A stretch of DNA of 64,000 bases from positions 186,001 through 250,000 of the forward strand of contig JAOZIH010000001.1 of NCBI GenBank assembly GCA_026014545.1. The letters are read 5' to 3'. The stretch comes from Candidatus Bathyarchaeota archaeon (GTDB taxonomy: Archaea; Thermoproteota; Bathyarchaeia; Bathyarchaeales; Bathycorpusculaceae). The translations under genes were made by a program, and so were the position numbers. The first letter of the stretch is position 1. Every line of letters starts with the position of its first letter. Positions 35,692-41,769 of the stretch are shown one piece after another. The notes beneath the pieces were generated by a model that worked only from the letters and a program-made list of their open reading frames with translations, was not told the DNA's origin and ran no database searches.

Positions 35692-35894
35692 TGTTTTCCG
35701 CTCATCAGCAGTCGCTTTTAATGGTCAGTGCAGGTCTGTGGCTTTTCTCACAGCTTAACGCTCGAAGCCGTCGCCTCACATCATTCCACTATGTGAAGTG
35801 GGAAACCGCGGATTTATCCGTTTTGATAACTTACAATGCATTATGCTTAAATGTAGACTCTTTTCCCTTCTCTATTCAAAAAGGGCGAGGCAAA

Positions 35895-36857
35895 ATGCGA
35901 AAAGCTTGCAAGCCTGTTATTGCTGTTCACGGCGGCGCGGGCACTTGGGACCCTGAACGTAGCCAAGCAGCATTGAAAAGCGTCAAAGAAGCCGCTGAAA
36001 CAGGCTTTAAAACGATGCGCGGGGGCGGCTCAGCAGTTGACGCTGTTGTTGAAGCAGTTGCGTTCATGGAGGACTCAGGCAACTTTAACGCTGGCGCAGG
36101 TTCAGCGCTGAATATTGAGAAGCGCGTAGAGATGGAAGCTTCCGTGATGGATGGGGCTACGCTACAGGCGGGCGCCGCGGCGCTCTTGAGCGACGTGCGG
36201 AATCCTGTGCGTTTGGCGCGGCTTGTGATGGAGAAAACGGATCATGTTTTCGTTGTAGGCAAGGGCGCTGACGATTTAGCGCGCATGTTTGGTTTAGAAA
36301 GGCGGCAATCCGTCACGGCGGCTCAGCTTGAGCGTTACCAGGCACAGTTGAAGAGTCTTCTCGCAGGCAGCGGCTATCTGCCGCGGCTGGCAGACTTGAT
36401 TAAGGCGCATCCTGAGGTTTTTCAGCTTGAAACGGTAGGCGCTGTGGCATTGGACTGCGCTGGCAATGTGGCTGCCGCGACATCCACAGGCGGGTTCCCG
36501 CTGAAGTTGGCGGGCAGAATAGGTGATTCGCCTTCGATTGGATGCGGCACCTACGCGGATAACCGTTCAGGCGCTTGCTCTGCATCAGGCGTCGGCGAGA
36601 TAGCAATCAGGCTTGTGCTGGCTAAAACCGTCTGCGACTACATGGGGAATGGGAGAGCACCGCAGGAAGCTGCCGAAGACGCCATAGCGCTCATAAAAGA
36701 GCGCATTCCAAACTCATATAATGTCATGGGCTTGATTGCGGTTGATGTTAATGGGAGAATAGGCGCTGCTCATAGCACGTCTAATCTCTGCTGGGCTTAC
36801 ATGACCGCGGCGCTTGAGGAGCCTGTGGCTTCGCTGAAAGCCAAACTTGTAAAGTAA
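35895..36857 (+). CDS. Isoaspartyl peptidase/L-asparaginase (Ntn hydrolase)
   Basis: Plant-type asparaginase made as a precursor that self-cleaves before the Thr of TVGAVALD near residue 180 of the precursor, freeing the nucleophile. PVIAVHGGAGTWDPE near the start, GNFNAGAGSALN and IGCGTYADNRSGACSASGVGE are conserved. I start it at the ATG at 35895, which has GAGG 4 nt upstream and begins the family sequence, though the frame is open to 35691. At 320 residues it has normal length. Hydrolyses isoaspartyl dipeptides or asparagine. Confidence 0.93.
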   Translation: MRKACKPVIAVHGGAGTWDPERSQAALKSVKEAAETGFKTMRGGGSAVDAVVEAVAFMEDSGNFNAGAGSALNIEKRVEMEASVMDGATLQAGAAALLSDVRNPVRLARLVMEKTDHVFVVGKGADDLARMFGLERRQSVTAAQLERYQAQLKSLLAGSGYLPRLADLIKAHPEVFQLETVGAVALDCAGNVAAATSTGGFPLKLAGRIGDSPSIGCGTYADNRSGACSASGVGEIAIRLVLAKTVCDYMGNGRAPQEAAEDAIALIKERIPNSYNVMGLIAVDVNGRIGAAHSTSNLCWAYMTAALEEPVASLKAKLVK

Positions 36858-36947
36858 AATGATGCCACCAGAGAGAATACTGGGGCGGAAAACAGCGATT
36901 TTGTCTGCGTTTCTGCAGAAGACTACGACAGTTGACGAATGAAAATG

Positions 36948-36976
36948 TTTAAAGCGCGCCAGTGTAAAGCTACACT
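36948..36976 (+). promoter_or_regulatory. Promoter and inverted repeat of the micropeptide gene
   Basis: TTTAAA (36948-36953) is a reasonable TATA core. AGTGTA-AAGC-TACACT (36961-36976) is a perfect 6-bp inverted repeat with a 4-nt centre, lying between that element and the Shine-Dalgarno. It could be an operator or a small hairpin in the leader. Confidence 0.45.
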
Positions 36977-37008
36977 ACTACCCGAACTCCTATTGGAGGT
37001 GAAAAAGG

Positions 37009-37077
37009 ATGGTGTTCGAAGAAGACGAGGAATGGGAAGAAATCGAAGACGAAGAATGGGAAGAAGAAGAATGGTAA
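37009..37077 (+). CDS. 22-residue hyperacidic micropeptide with WEEEEW ending
   Basis: MVFEEDEEWEEIEDEE followed by WEEEEW: 14 Glu/Asp, three Trp in a four-to-eight spacing, no basic residue. GGAGGTGA (36995-37002), a perfect match to the archaeal anti-SD, lies 6 nt before the ATG, which strongly supports translation. A TATA-like element and an inverted repeat precede it and a T-rich stretch follows. Too short for family assignment. The sequence suggests an intrinsically disordered, charge-based binder (basic protein, RNA-binding protein or metal). Confidence 0.6.
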   Translation: MVFEEDEEWEEIEDEEWEEEEW

Positions 37078-37262
37078 CCAGCATTGTGGAAAACACCTTT
37101 TTCACATCTTTCTTTCGTATGCTTTGATATTTTAAGCCTTATTTTTCCATGCGGGATTGACCGAGTTTAGCAAGCGAAGCTGGCATTTTTTAATTTTTCT
37201 TCTTTTCCAGCGAGGTTACTGTTTATAACTAAGCTGACTTCATTATTGAGGTTGAGTTTGCC

Positions 37263-39056
37263 ATGACCCGAGTTGCTGTAATAGACGCGGACAAATGCAA
37301 AGTGAAAAAGTGTAATCAGCTTTGCGTGAGTTTCTGTCCCATGGTGCGAAGCCGCGTGGAAGCCATACGCATAGAAGGCAACAAGGCGATAATTTCGGAA
37401 AGGTTGTGCAGCGGCTGCGGCATCTGCGTAAAAAAATGCCCTTTTCAAGCTATTAGCATCGTTAATCTTCCAGATGAGTTGGAAAAGGACTGCAGCCACC
37501 GCTTCGCCGCGAACAGCTTCAAACTTTTTAGGCTGCCGACGCCTTCGCCGGGCATGGTTTTGGGCTTGCTGGGGCAAAATGGCATAGGCAAAACCACTAC
37601 TTTGAAGGTGCTTTCAGGCGAGTTAAAACCTAACCTGGGCAGATACGATAATCCGCCTGAGTGGGACGAGATAATTCAGTACTATCGTGGTTCGACGCTG
37701 CAGGAATATTTCCAGCGGATGAGTCAGAACAATCTCAAAGTGGCGCATAAGCCGCAGTATGTGGATAAGATTCCAAAAGTGGTTTCAGGCAAAGTTGGCG
37801 AGTTGCTTGAGAAAGTGGATGAGAGAAAAATCTTGGATAGACTTGCCGCTGATCTGGAGCTCACGAAGATTTGGGACCGCCCCTTGAATGTACTCAGTGG
37901 CGGTGAGCTGCAACGTGTCGCTGTGGCAGCAGCCCTAAGCCGCGAAGCAGATGTTTACCTCTTTGATGAGCCTTCCAGCTATTTGGATGTGAAGCAGCGG
38001 TTGCAGGTAGCCAAAGCCATTAGAAGCCTTAAGCTGCAGGAGAAAACCATAATCGTGGCTGAGCATGACCTAGCCATAATTGATTACTTGTCTGATCAGA
38101 TCTGCATCTTTTACGGTCAGCCAGGCGTCTACGGCGTGGTTTCCCACGTACATGGCGTACGCACAGGCATAAACATCTACCTACAAGGCTACATTCCCGA
38201 CGAGAACATGCTGTTCAGGAGAGAAGCCATAATCTTTCATGAGAAGCCGCCTGCAACGGGCACAAGCGGCGGCGAACCCTTGCTGCGGTGGGGGCGCATA
38301 GAGAAAACGTTTGAAGGTTTCAAGCTTGTTGCTGAACCAGGCGAAATAAGGCGCGGCGAAATCATCGGCATCATGGGGCCAAACGGTATTGGAAAGACCA
38401 CTTTCGTTAAGATTCTAGCGGGGCTTGAGGAGACAGATGACAAGCAGAAGCTGGGCACGTTGACGGTAAGCTACAAGCCGCAGTACATCGCCGCTGATTA
38501 TAATGGCACGGTTCAAGAGCTTCTTATGGGGGTTGCTAAGGAAAATTTCACGGCGAGCTGGTATAAAACCGAGATTCTTCAGCCCTTAAAGATTAATCTG
38601 CTCTTGGATAGGAACGTGATGGAGCTCAGCGGCGGAGAACTGCAGAAAGTCGCCATCGCCGCCTGCTTGTCGCGCAAGGCGGATCTGCTTCTGCTGGATG
38701 AGCCAAGCGCCTACTTGGACGTGGAGGAAAGGCTGAATATGGCGCGCACGCTACGGCGTGTTGTCGAAGCGCATAATGTGCCAGCCTTTGTCGTGGAGCA
38801 TGACGTGGTCGCGCAGGACTTCCTTGCAGATAGGCTCATGGTGTTCAGCGGAGAACCAGGCGTGAAAGGCTTTGCGAATTCGCCTACAAGCCTGCGAAGC
38901 GGAATGAACGCCTTCTTAAAAGAGATGAACATCACCTTCCGCCGAGACCCAACCACGAGGCGGCCAAGGGTTAACAAGGAAGGCTCAAAACTTGATGTTT
39001 ACCAGAAGCAAATTGGCGAATATTATTATACACGTTTGCGGCAAAAAGAAGAGTAG
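37263..39056 (+). CDS. Ribosome recycling ATPase ABCE1/Rli1
   Basis: N-terminal [4Fe-4S] domain of about 75 residues with the eight cysteines of ABCE1 (CKVKKCNQLCVSFCP and CSGCGICVKKCP), then two ABC domains: Walker A GQNGIGKTTT and GPNGIGKTTF, signatures LSGGELQRVAV and LSGGELQKVAI, and Walker B LFDEPSSYLDV and LLDEPSAYLDV. It splits ribosomes after termination. The length of 597 residues is as expected. GAGGTTGA precedes the ATG. Confidence 0.98.
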   Translation: MTRVAVIDADKCKVKKCNQLCVSFCPMVRSRVEAIRIEGNKAIISERLCSGCGICVKKCPFQAISIVNLPDELEKDCSHRFAANSFKLFRLPTPSPGMVLGLLGQNGIGKTTTLKVLSGELKPNLGRYDNPPEWDEIIQYYRGSTLQEYFQRMSQNNLKVAHKPQYVDKIPKVVSGKVGELLEKVDERKILDRLAADLELTKIWDRPLNVLSGGELQRVAVAAALSREADVYLFDEPSSYLDVKQRLQVAKAIRSLKLQEKTIIVAEHDLAIIDYLSDQICIFYGQPGVYGVVSHVHGVRTGINIYLQGYIPDENMLFRREAIIFHEKPPATGTSGGEPLLRWGRIEKTFEGFKLVAEPGEIRRGEIIGIMGPNGIGKTTFVKILAGLEETDDKQKLGTLTVSYKPQYIAADYNGTVQELLMGVAKENFTASWYKTEILQPLKINLLLDRNVMELSGGELQKVAIAACLSRKADLLLLDEPSAYLDVEERLNMARTLRRVVEAHNVPAFVVEHDVVAQDFLADRLMVFSGEPGVKGFANSPTSLRSGMNAFLKEMNITFRRDPTTRRPRVNKEGSKLDVYQKQIGEYYYTRLRQKEE

Positions 39057-39170: not shown

Positions 39171-40694
39171 GTGGCGCAAGCAACCTTTGAGGAAATCAGC
39201 GCATCCGACTTTTTCTACCGCAACCGCGACATTGCAGGCTTCACTAACCCGTCTAGAGCAATATTCGCGGCGATACGCGAGCTCGTGGAGAACTCACTGG
39301 ATGCTGCTGAAAGCCAAAAGATACCTCCGGACATTTATGTACGCCTCTCTTTTGAGGGCGAAGCCAGCAAAGACACGCAAATTTACAAGCTGAGAGTCGA
39401 AGACAACGGCTGCGGAATTCACCCGCGGTATATTCCCTCAGCTTTTGGACAGGTGCTTTATGGCTCAAAGTATAAGCTGAAACAGATGCGGGGCACCTTC
39501 GGCTTAGGCGGCAAAATGGCGGTACTCTACGGGCAGATTACGACTCATCAGCCAGCCTACATCACCTCAAGCACTGGCCTGCCTAAGATTTACTCGTTTA
39601 AGCTGATGATTGACATTCAGCGGAACCGCCCCATAATTCTCGACCGCAAAGTGCTCATCAACAAGGAGCAGTGGCACGGCACGATTGTTGAGTTTACGCT
39701 TGAAGGCGATTACCTCCGTGCCAGATCCAAGATTCTGGAGTATTTTAAGCAGACAGCAATGGTGAACCCTTACGCGAATTTGACGTTTGTCGATCCAAAA
39801 GGTAGGCTTTACAAGTTTACTAGAGCAACCACGGACATGCCTAACCCGCCCCAGGAGACGGAGCCCCACCCCTACGGCGTTGACGTGGAGCTTCTCCAGA
39901 GGCTTATCCAAGTCACGCCGCATAAGAACATGCTGGATTTTCTGAAACATCACTTCCACAGAGTCGGCGACGTCACGGCGCAGAAGTTCCTAGAATTCAG
40001 CGGCTTAAACCCCTCAAAGAATCCCAAGAAACTTTCGCATGAGGAAATTGTGCGGTTAATGCATAATTTGAAGAAGTTTAAGGATTTTCTGCCGCCTGAC
40101 GCCAGCTGTTTATCGCCCTTGGGTGAAGAGTTGTTGAAGGCGGGAATCTCGAAGGAACTTAAGCCCGAGTATCTTGTTGTTCATCAGCGTAAGCCAGCAA
40201 CTTACGCTGGGCACCCATTCATCGTGGAGCTGGGCATTGCCTATGGTGGAGAAGTCCCAAGTAAGGGTAGCTTTACAATTTACCGTTTCGCTAACAGGAT
40301 TCCGCTGCTTTATGACGAGGCAAGTGATGTTTCGTTTAGAGTTATAAGCAACATGAACTGGCGCAGGTACAAGGTTTCGCTTGACATGCCCATCGCGATT
40401 GTGGTGCACATCTGCAGCACCAAAGTGCCCTACAAGACGGTTGGTAAAGAATTCATTGCAGACCGCCCTGAGGTTAGAAGGGAAATAGCGAACGCCCTGC
40501 GCGAAGCAGCCCGTCAACTTCAACATTTCCTATCTAAGCGTGAGCATGTGGATAAAGAGCGCAAGCGGCTCGGCATATTCGCTAAGTACCTGCCGAAAAT
40601 TGCCCAGTTTTCCGCGGCGCTTGCTGGAAAGGAGAAACTTCCGGATATAGAAAGATTGTTAAAGAGTGTGCAGAAGTATGGAGACGAAGCGTAA
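39171..40694 (+). CDS. top6B: DNA topoisomerase VI subunit B
   Basis: GHKL-type ATPase subunit of the type IIB topoisomerase. ELVENSLDAAE holds the catalytic Glu and Mg-binding Asn, VEDNGCGIH is the G1 loop, and GTFGLGGKMAV the ATP lid. A helix-2-turn-helix insert and a transducer domain follow (LVVHQRKPATYAGHPF and on). At 507 residues it is close to normal. GTG start behind GGAGG. Overlaps the subunit A start by 17 bases. Confidence 0.97.
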   Translation: MAQATFEEISASDFFYRNRDIAGFTNPSRAIFAAIRELVENSLDAAESQKIPPDIYVRLSFEGEASKDTQIYKLRVEDNGCGIHPRYIPSAFGQVLYGSKYKLKQMRGTFGLGGKMAVLYGQITTHQPAYITSSTGLPKIYSFKLMIDIQRNRPIILDRKVLINKEQWHGTIVEFTLEGDYLRARSKILEYFKQTAMVNPYANLTFVDPKGRLYKFTRATTDMPNPPQETEPHPYGVDVELLQRLIQVTPHKNMLDFLKHHFHRVGDVTAQKFLEFSGLNPSKNPKKLSHEEIVRLMHNLKKFKDFLPPDASCLSPLGEELLKAGISKELKPEYLVVHQRKPATYAGHPFIVELGIAYGGEVPSKGSFTIYRFANRIPLLYDEASDVSFRVISNMNWRRYKVSLDMPIAIVVHICSTKVPYKTVGKEFIADRPEVRREIANALREAARQLQHFLSKREHVDKERKRLGIFAKYLPKIAQFSAALAGKEKLPDIERLLKSVQKYGDEA

Positions 40695-41769
40695 ATATAG
40701 TGTAACTGAAAAGAAAAGTGAAGTTATAAGTAGCTTGAAGGATTTTGGCTCAAAAATTTATGAGCAAATGGAGAAGGGAGATTTCCCCTCTATCACCATG
40801 CCCAGTCGCTCTACACAGAACATCTATTACGACATGAATCTCCGCCAGTTCATTTTAGGCGACAAAAGCGTGCGCAGAAGCGCCCGGAACATTCGCCATG
40901 TTAAGCCGTTCACGCAGCTTGTGTGGGTTGCACGATTCTCGCATGAGCTTACTACGCAGCGCAAGACATCCACTTTAAGAGACGTTTACTATTCCGCCCA
41001 AGCATACGAAATGACATTCAAGGATCAGCAGGAATCAGACAACATCATCACCGACTTGGAAACCGTTCTCGGCCTTTCACGAGAAGACTTCAACATCTTC
41101 CCAGAGGAACGCTCCGCAGTCTTCGGCGACCTCACCATAGAATACACGGTTCCAGGCTACGAAGGCAAAACGTTGAACTTAACCACGCATCCAGACGGTG
41201 TCTTAATCGGCCCAGCGTTAACTTCCGCCGAGTTCGTAAACACTACAGCCGACAAAATTATAGCCATAGAGAAAGGCGGCTTGTTCACGCGGTTCATCGA
41301 AGAAAACGTGCACAAAAAGTTTAACGCTTTGCTGGTGCTAACCGCGGGGCAAGCGCCGCGGGCGACGAGGCACTTCATTAGGCGGCTGCACACTGAACTG
41401 AACCTGCCAGTGTACATCTTCACAGACGGCGACCCATGGGGAATGCACATAGCCATGGTCATCATAAGCGGCTCCGCAAACGCGGCGCATCTGCGCGAGT
41501 TGAACACGCCTGACGCAAAATGGAGCGGCGTCTGGGCAACTGACATCGTCAACTATAAGCTGCCCACGGATCCACTGGACGAAGTGGACATTAAACGACT
41601 TTATGAACTGCAGAAGGACCCGCGATATAAGGAAGATCCACTGTGGCAGAGGGAAATCAAGACGTTTCTGAAAATCAGGCGGAAGGCTGAGCAAGAGGCA
41701 TTCAGCCGCTACGGCCTAACCTACATTGTGGATGAATACTTGCCTGCAAAACTCGAAGAAACAAAGTAG
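40678..41769 (+). CDS. top6A: DNA topoisomerase VI subunit A (Spo11-like)
   Basis: DNA-cleaving subunit. The active-site Tyr lies in the winged-helix segment TLRDVYYSAQAY near residue 105. The Toprim acidic residues are in IIAIEKGGLFTR and the D-x-D of VYIFTDGDPWGMH. The start at ATG 40678 inside the end of the B gene gives 363 residues. Typical archaeal arrangement, B before A. Confidence 0.97.
   Translation: METKRKYSVTEKKSEVISSLKDFGSKIYEQMEKGDFPSITMPSRSTQNIYYDMNLRQFILGDKSVRRSARNIRHVKPFTQLVWVARFSHELTTQRKTSTLRDVYYSAQAYEMTFKDQQESDNIITDLETVLGLSREDFNIFPEERSAVFGDLTIEYTVPGYEGKTLNLTTHPDGVLIGPALTSAEFVNTTADKIIAIEKGGLFTRFIEENVHKKFNALLVLTAGQAPRATRHFIRRLHTELNLPVYIFTDGDPWGMHIAMVIISGSANAAHLRELNTPDAKWSGVWATDIVNYKLPTDPLDEVDIKRLYELQKDPRYKEDPLWQREIKTFLKIRRKAEQEAFSRYGLTYIVDEYLPAKLEETK

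Follow-up and report, generated by a model that had tools for sequence, protein, structure and literature searches.

Between a gene of the Asparaginase_2 family and the gene for the ribosome-recycling ATPase ABCE1 (RLI), the window (the whole stretch of archaeal DNA analysed, 64 kb) holds a 22-codon reading frame that spells little besides Glu, Asp and Trp, and the question raised by this locus is whether such a peptide is a genuine gene product and, if so, what it might do. The product, MVFEEDEEWEEIEDEEWEEEEW (13 Glu, 2 Asp and 3 Trp among its 22 residues), is encoded by an ORF led by the Shine-Dalgarno sequence GGAGGTGA; since the TGA within the latter is an in-frame stop, the frame can start no earlier than the ATG at 37009. 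The ORF is the only one of its kind in the window and none was found in 40 shuffled 64-kb windows, which places it beyond chance. Pattern searches located one copy in the organism's own genome. A sequence-only reading of this DNA had described a hyperacidic Trp/Glu micropeptide, a perfect Shine-Dalgarno sequence 6 nt before its ATG and a T-rich end, and all of these could be read directly (Table 1), with further T-rich sequence beyond 37118. ABCE1 starts 185 nt past the end of the micropeptide ORF and is followed at 39171-41769 by two ORFs that resemble those of DNA topoisomerase VI subunits B and A. The same genome has another Fer4_RLI match (G000:C33:9863-9949, L238), which lies in an open frame of 187 codons.

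Table 1. Features at the micropeptide locus, in positions of the window.
Feature	Position	Strand	Basis and remarks
Asparaginase_2 family gene, upstream neighbour	35871..36857	+	Asparaginase_2 match; start approximate, 35871-36854 searched
Promoter element CGACAnnTGnCGAA(t/c)(a/g)AAAA, partly palindromic, operator-like	36926..36945	+	Family consensus
TATA-like TTTAAA of the micropeptide gene	36948..36953	+	Reading and family alignment
6-bp inverted repeat AGTGTA-AAGC-TACACT	36961..36976		Reading; not conserved
Shine-Dalgarno sequence GGAGGTGA	36995..37002	+	Reading; six-base spacer 37003-37008 before the ATG
Hyperacidic Trp micropeptide CDS, 22 residues	37009..37077	+	Direct reading (ATG to TAA, stop included), third-position variation and relatives
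T-rich stretch past the CDS, possible archaeal terminator	37097..37118	+	Reading; terminator role inferred
Separate TATA-like TTTATAA of ABCE1	37222..37228	+	Reading and family loci
ABCE1 (RLI) ribosome-recycling ATPase gene, recurrent downstream neighbour	37263..39056	+	Fer4_RLI and ABC_tran matches

The earlier reading had looked to relatives at the ABCE1 locus to decide the matter, with absence there as one mark against a gene. ABCE1 was detected in all 60 genomes searched, and we retained 30 loci, including the one in the window. In 27 of the 30 (the window's own counted) a hyperacidic ORF precedes ABCE1, so that an equivalent peptide is present 5' of ABCE1 in 26 of the 27 same-family relatives with enough sequence; two loci were too short upstream (L023 and L030, with 284 and 46 bases). 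In the remaining one, L022, the micropeptide is truly absent, as more than 1 kb of upstream sequence is available and ABCE1 is kept. For a codon test we began with 56 family loci, of which 51 contained an ORF with the strict ending, and these gave 39 distinct 3' blocks. Among the 39, variation falls almost wholly at third codon positions, the mean entropy over the last eight codons being 0.02 bits at the first, 0.08 at the second, and 0.63 at the third codon position; the last codon is TGG in 39 of 39, as the search required. As far as comparison of sequences reaches, these data show conservation of the Glu/Trp frame as a protein, together with a promoter-like block and ribosome-binding site of its own, and we regard the micropeptide as almost certainly a real, conserved gene.

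The flanking elements are consistent with this assignment. Using loose patterns, the Shine-Dalgarno core was found in 26 of 27 family loci and a TTTAAA-like box likewise in 26 of 27, and in the alignment a TCGACAnnTGnCGAAtaAAAAtgTTTAAA block and GGAGGTGA are common to the family loci upstream of the micropeptide. The promoter-like region claimed by the earlier reading is thus conserved in the family, as are the Shine-Dalgarno sequence and the position of the gene. A separate TATA-like box precedes ABCE1 in 26 of 29 family loci (loose pattern), L022 included, and the conserved promoter-like block of the micropeptide is, by sequence, distinct from that of ABCE1. The inverted repeat pointed out in the same reading is present in the window and has no conservation in the family alignment, which leaves nothing to support a role for it. 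Directly 5' of the TATA-like box, the CGACAnnTGnCGAA element is kept across the family and is a candidate dedicated operator of the micropeptide gene. We rejected it as a regulon element because, with up to one mismatch allowed, the organism's own genome has this one site and no second before any other gene.

Conservation reaches far beyond the close relatives that the sequence-only reading had in mind. Peptides of 20–65 residues that contain Glu runs, carry Trp at intervals of about five residues and end in Trp are found throughout Bathyarchaeota, Thermoprotei, Nezhaarchaeota, and Thermococcales, and in a Nanopusillus. A profile search with a 23-row peptide alignment (HMMER, over 151 and 300 genomes) returned no match, own genome included, and was therefore uninformative; exact DNA patterns were used for this reason, and the presence and absence counts that follow are lower bounds. 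An EEEEW-stop pattern occurs in 109 of 398 genomes of the phylum (reversed control, 8), and nearly all of the fetched loci have an ORF with a short hyperacidic, Trp-spaced end; four (L037, L079, L088, and L096) were discarded as chance pattern endings. A relaxed pattern was found in 56 of 151 near-complete genomes of the phylum (control, 1). A two-Trp pattern scanned over 84,980 species gave 86 stretches, and of the 80 matches listed 78 are archaeal, mostly from Bathyarchaeota, Thermoprotei, Desulfurococcales, Sulfolobales, Nezhaarchaeota, and Methanomethylicota, together with three contigs from Thermococcus, one from Nanopusillus, and a Euryarchaeota MAG; our lineage names for relatives rest on these listed matches. 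The two bacterial matches among them (L161 and L198) belong to the tails of other ORFs, and a virus origin was rejected as both matches in viral contigs fall at the C-terminus of a larger, different protein. Of 115 genomes in the Thermococcus phylum, 30 match the pattern (reversed control, six), and 18 of 20 new loci (L217-L236) encode peptides, mostly of the type MQPPKKKK...EEWEEEDWEEEEEW. In these Thermococcales versions the acidic Trp tail follows a basic head of the MQPPKKKK kind. As the profiles matched nothing, homology across these lineages rests on pattern, composition, and place, and acidic-Trp peptides in distant lineages may have had independent origins. We also considered the micropeptide as a marker of thermophily, using the 16S G+C content of 90 of the 122 genomes with a 16S match, with three f34 genomes set aside as ambiguous. 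This was rejected, since the mean is 62.6% with the peptide (n = 44) vs. 61.0% without (n = 43; p = 0.44; by family, p = 0.51).

What the peptide does is most readily approached from its place. The sequence upstream of ABCE1 was examined at 80 loci, of which 77 were selected irrespective of pattern, for hyperacidic ORFs containing two or more aromatic residues. Such an ORF is present on the ABCE1 strand in 26 of the 80 (23 of the 77 pattern-independent loci), with no match on that strand in the other 54, and on the other strand in 3; the ABCE1-adjacent peptide was found in 14 of the 29 families sampled. The sampled loci of families f17, f23, f24, f25, f27, f32, f36, and f38 have no such peptide upstream of ABCE1, and f24 and some f36 genomes have a micropeptide elsewhere, away from ABCE1. 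In the Nanopusillus copy (L192) the next gene is that of aIF1A, 32 nt downstream. With moderate confidence, we favor a separately transcribed gene of a widespread archaeal family whose product would be a trans-acting polyanion with Trp anchors, plausibly with a partner in small-subunit translation. Expressed from its own promoter, apart from ABCE1, the peptide would be disordered alone or helical on binding; its spaced Trp side chains would anchor it in hydrophobic pockets, and its Glu runs would contact a basic, RNA-binding surface of the partner. Placing the partner among the components of small-subunit translation (ABCE1, aIF1A or the 30S subunit) is a weaker, tentative part of this proposal, which we infer from ABCE1 being the commonest neighbor across distant lineages and from aIF1A being next in Nanopusillus. 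The link to ABCE1 may instead be ancient synteny without function, in view of the 54 loci with no match on the ABCE1 strand and of the Thermococcales, in which the micropeptide lies beside genes other than ABCE1. L022, without the micropeptide yet with ABCE1, also counts against the proposal.

The closest functional likeness that we found to the favored reading is eukaryotic. The N-terminal acidic motif (NTA) of eIF3j/Hcr1 is centered on a conserved Trp, Trp52, which a hydrophobic pocket of the eIF3b RRM accommodates, and eIF1A partly suppresses the leaky-scanning defect caused by its loss (PMC2824034); eIF3j is also said to assist ABCE1 in recycling (PMC7196836). The micropeptide likewise has Trp inside an acidic stretch, and its neighbors, ABCE1 and once aIF1A, parallel the assistance of ABCE1 by eIF3j/Hcr1 and its genetic link to eIF1A. 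Unlike eIF3j/Hcr1, a much longer eukaryotic protein, the micropeptide ends after 22 residues, with no later regions and no Pfam match, and the likeness is one of analogy without demonstrated homology. By that analogy the peptide could serve small-subunit recycling or initiation as a dedicated accessory and be the archaeal functional equivalent of the acidic Trp motif of eIF3j, with its spaced Trp residues docking on ABCE1, aIF1A or 30S and the polyanion shielding rRNA- or mRNA-binding surfaces; so specific a role is speculative and, in our estimate, unlikely. If true, an archaeal accessory family built almost only of Glu and Trp would span Thermoproteota, Thermococcales, and a nanoarchaeon. 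A word search found no mention of extra density in the available text of an archaeal ABCE1-30S paper (PMC7196836), and the new 30S proteins of S. solfataricus, aS33 and aS34, are described otherwise, one of them as binding zinc and having about 80 residues (PMC11698992). Because the micropeptide gene recurs next to ABCE1, an involvement in ribosome recycling or initiation can be tested directly.

The composition of the family would also suit a general polyanion, that is, a nucleic-acid mimic or a chaperone for basic DNA- or RNA-binding proteins whose mechanism has nothing to do with ABCE1. In 162 distinct acidic tails, mostly chosen by the Trp-ending pattern, we found 66% Glu, 6% Asp, and 15% Trp, with a median net charge of -19, and multiple and unlinked copies occur, for example three in G022. 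This explanation accounts neither for the recurrent adjacency to ABCE1 in nearly half of the sampled families nor for the defined C-terminus, which is Trp in 24 of the 26 pattern-independent peptides (one Phe and one Glu in the others), and we consider it rather unlikely, although it is the strongest competitor of the favored reading. Small acidic disordered proteins as such are already known. DSS1/Sem1, of about 70 residues with a C-terminal helix, has Trp and Phe spaced within Glu/Asp runs, as the micropeptide has its aromatic residues in acidic runs; the micropeptide differs in having no Pfam match (six peptides) and none in PDB sequence searches, or one match at E = 3. NCBIfam and PHROG gave no match for the peptides tried. 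All of these absences are weak negatives, as the HMMER filters disfavor sequences of such composition. A single-sequence AlphaFold model of a 53-residue Thermococcales-like relative (L204) is one long helix over residues 20-52 (mean pLDDT 72), from which we derive no fold. In open-licence PMC papers we recognized no paper on the micropeptide, and six sequence strings were absent from the full text. The micropeptide represents an undescribed gene family across many archaea, among them relatives of cultivable strains in Thermococcus and Sulfolobales, and its newness concerns the protein family. It appears to have been overlooked because its members are very short, masked as low complexity, invisible to profile searches, and poor subjects for tryptic proteomics, which sees a tail with no Lys or Arg badly. 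The family suggests that a nearly two-letter peptide can be selectively held over very long times.

A position before ABCE1 could alternatively mark a cis-acting leader, as in MgtL, the acidic leader that regulates a bacterial Mg2+ transporter: an early acidic run would destabilize or pause the ribosome, report recycling capacity, and so set ABCE1 expression. The window ORF is, like such leaders, very acidic, short, upstream of another gene and acidic within its first 30 codons. In bacteria, ribosomes pause on acidic residues within the first 30 positions, a pause relieved by the ABC protein EttA (PMC11282234), and a translation-aborting ORF has precedent (PMC8092293). We compared 181 distinct places, which were largely pattern-selected and in part redundant. 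In 89 of them ABCE1 lies on the same strand no more than 700 nt downstream, at distances down to 42 nt. In 36 others the next ORF of at least 100 codons is on the opposite strand, in 31 it is on the same strand and other than ABCE1, and 25 places were too short to tell. Some of the 36 opposite-strand neighbors may rest on a spurious ORF; the cleanest cases are the f9 loci L062-L065 and L093, L094, L146, L184, L276, L282, and L286, and in several (e.g., L093, L094, L184, L276, L282, and L286) the opposing ORF lies 5-8 nt past the micropeptide. At L254, L276, and L286 the hyperacidic ORF is itself on the strand opposite ABCE1. Placement in cis before one gene is thus not kept throughout the family, and these comparisons show that the gene persists where ABCE1 is not downstream. 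Because it is elsewhere unlinked or faces a convergent gene, the peptide is not generally a leader. In the window, moreover, a conserved TATA-like box belonging to ABCE1 itself stands between the ORF and the ABCE1 start, and a leader would have no need for kept Trp spacing or a C-terminal Trp. We therefore think a leader improbable and expect that the micropeptide very probably acts in trans.

A carrier or tag, in which the acidic tail presents its terminus for enzymatic modification as in LysW, is considerably less probable. LysW/ArgW share an acidic C-terminal tail with the micropeptide, and in family f34 two ORFs (L071 and L072, from G292 and G211) encode a different protein in which a LysW-like zinc ribbon bears a long acidic Trp/Leu tail ending in EEEEW. 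The ribbon match in f34 is 27.1 against a Pfam cut-off of 27, barely over, and 37.4 against an NCBIfam cut-off of 75 bits, the EDWGE motif of the LysW C-terminus is absent, and neighbor inspection saw no modifying enzyme recurring next to the micropeptide. Unlike in LysW/ArgW, a zinc ribbon is missing from the window micropeptide and seen only in the f34 ORFs; the micropeptide also differs in having Trp as its last residue. As G211 has no micropeptide upstream of ABCE1 (L247), the f34 tail may have been fused onto the ribbon.

That the locus is not a protein gene of this kind, being instead an RNA gene or a conserved poly-Arg frame for an eL41-like peptide, is scarcely credible: a poly-Arg ORF is present in another frame of the window (36939-37127), but stops break it in many of the 39 distinct family sequences, the changes among these fall at third positions of the Glu/Trp frame, and the Shine-Dalgarno sequence belongs to the Glu/Trp frame, which the sequence-only reading had rightly preferred.

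Some further observations concern individual copies. At L077 an RPB9/TFS-type zinc-ribbon protein (PF02150, above cut-off) lies between the peptide and ABCE1, and L092 has a corresponding ORF below cut-offs. Most f9 versions (L062-L066) start MSRRK or MSKRK. Unlinked copies at L062-L065, L102, L103, and L143 are beside an ORF of about 250 codons starting MVFYIAYKAS or similar, the L062 copy of which has no Pfam or NCBIfam match. In one f24 genome (L089, 1948-2322) the next gene on the same strand is that of S-adenosylmethionine decarboxylase (AdoMet_dc).
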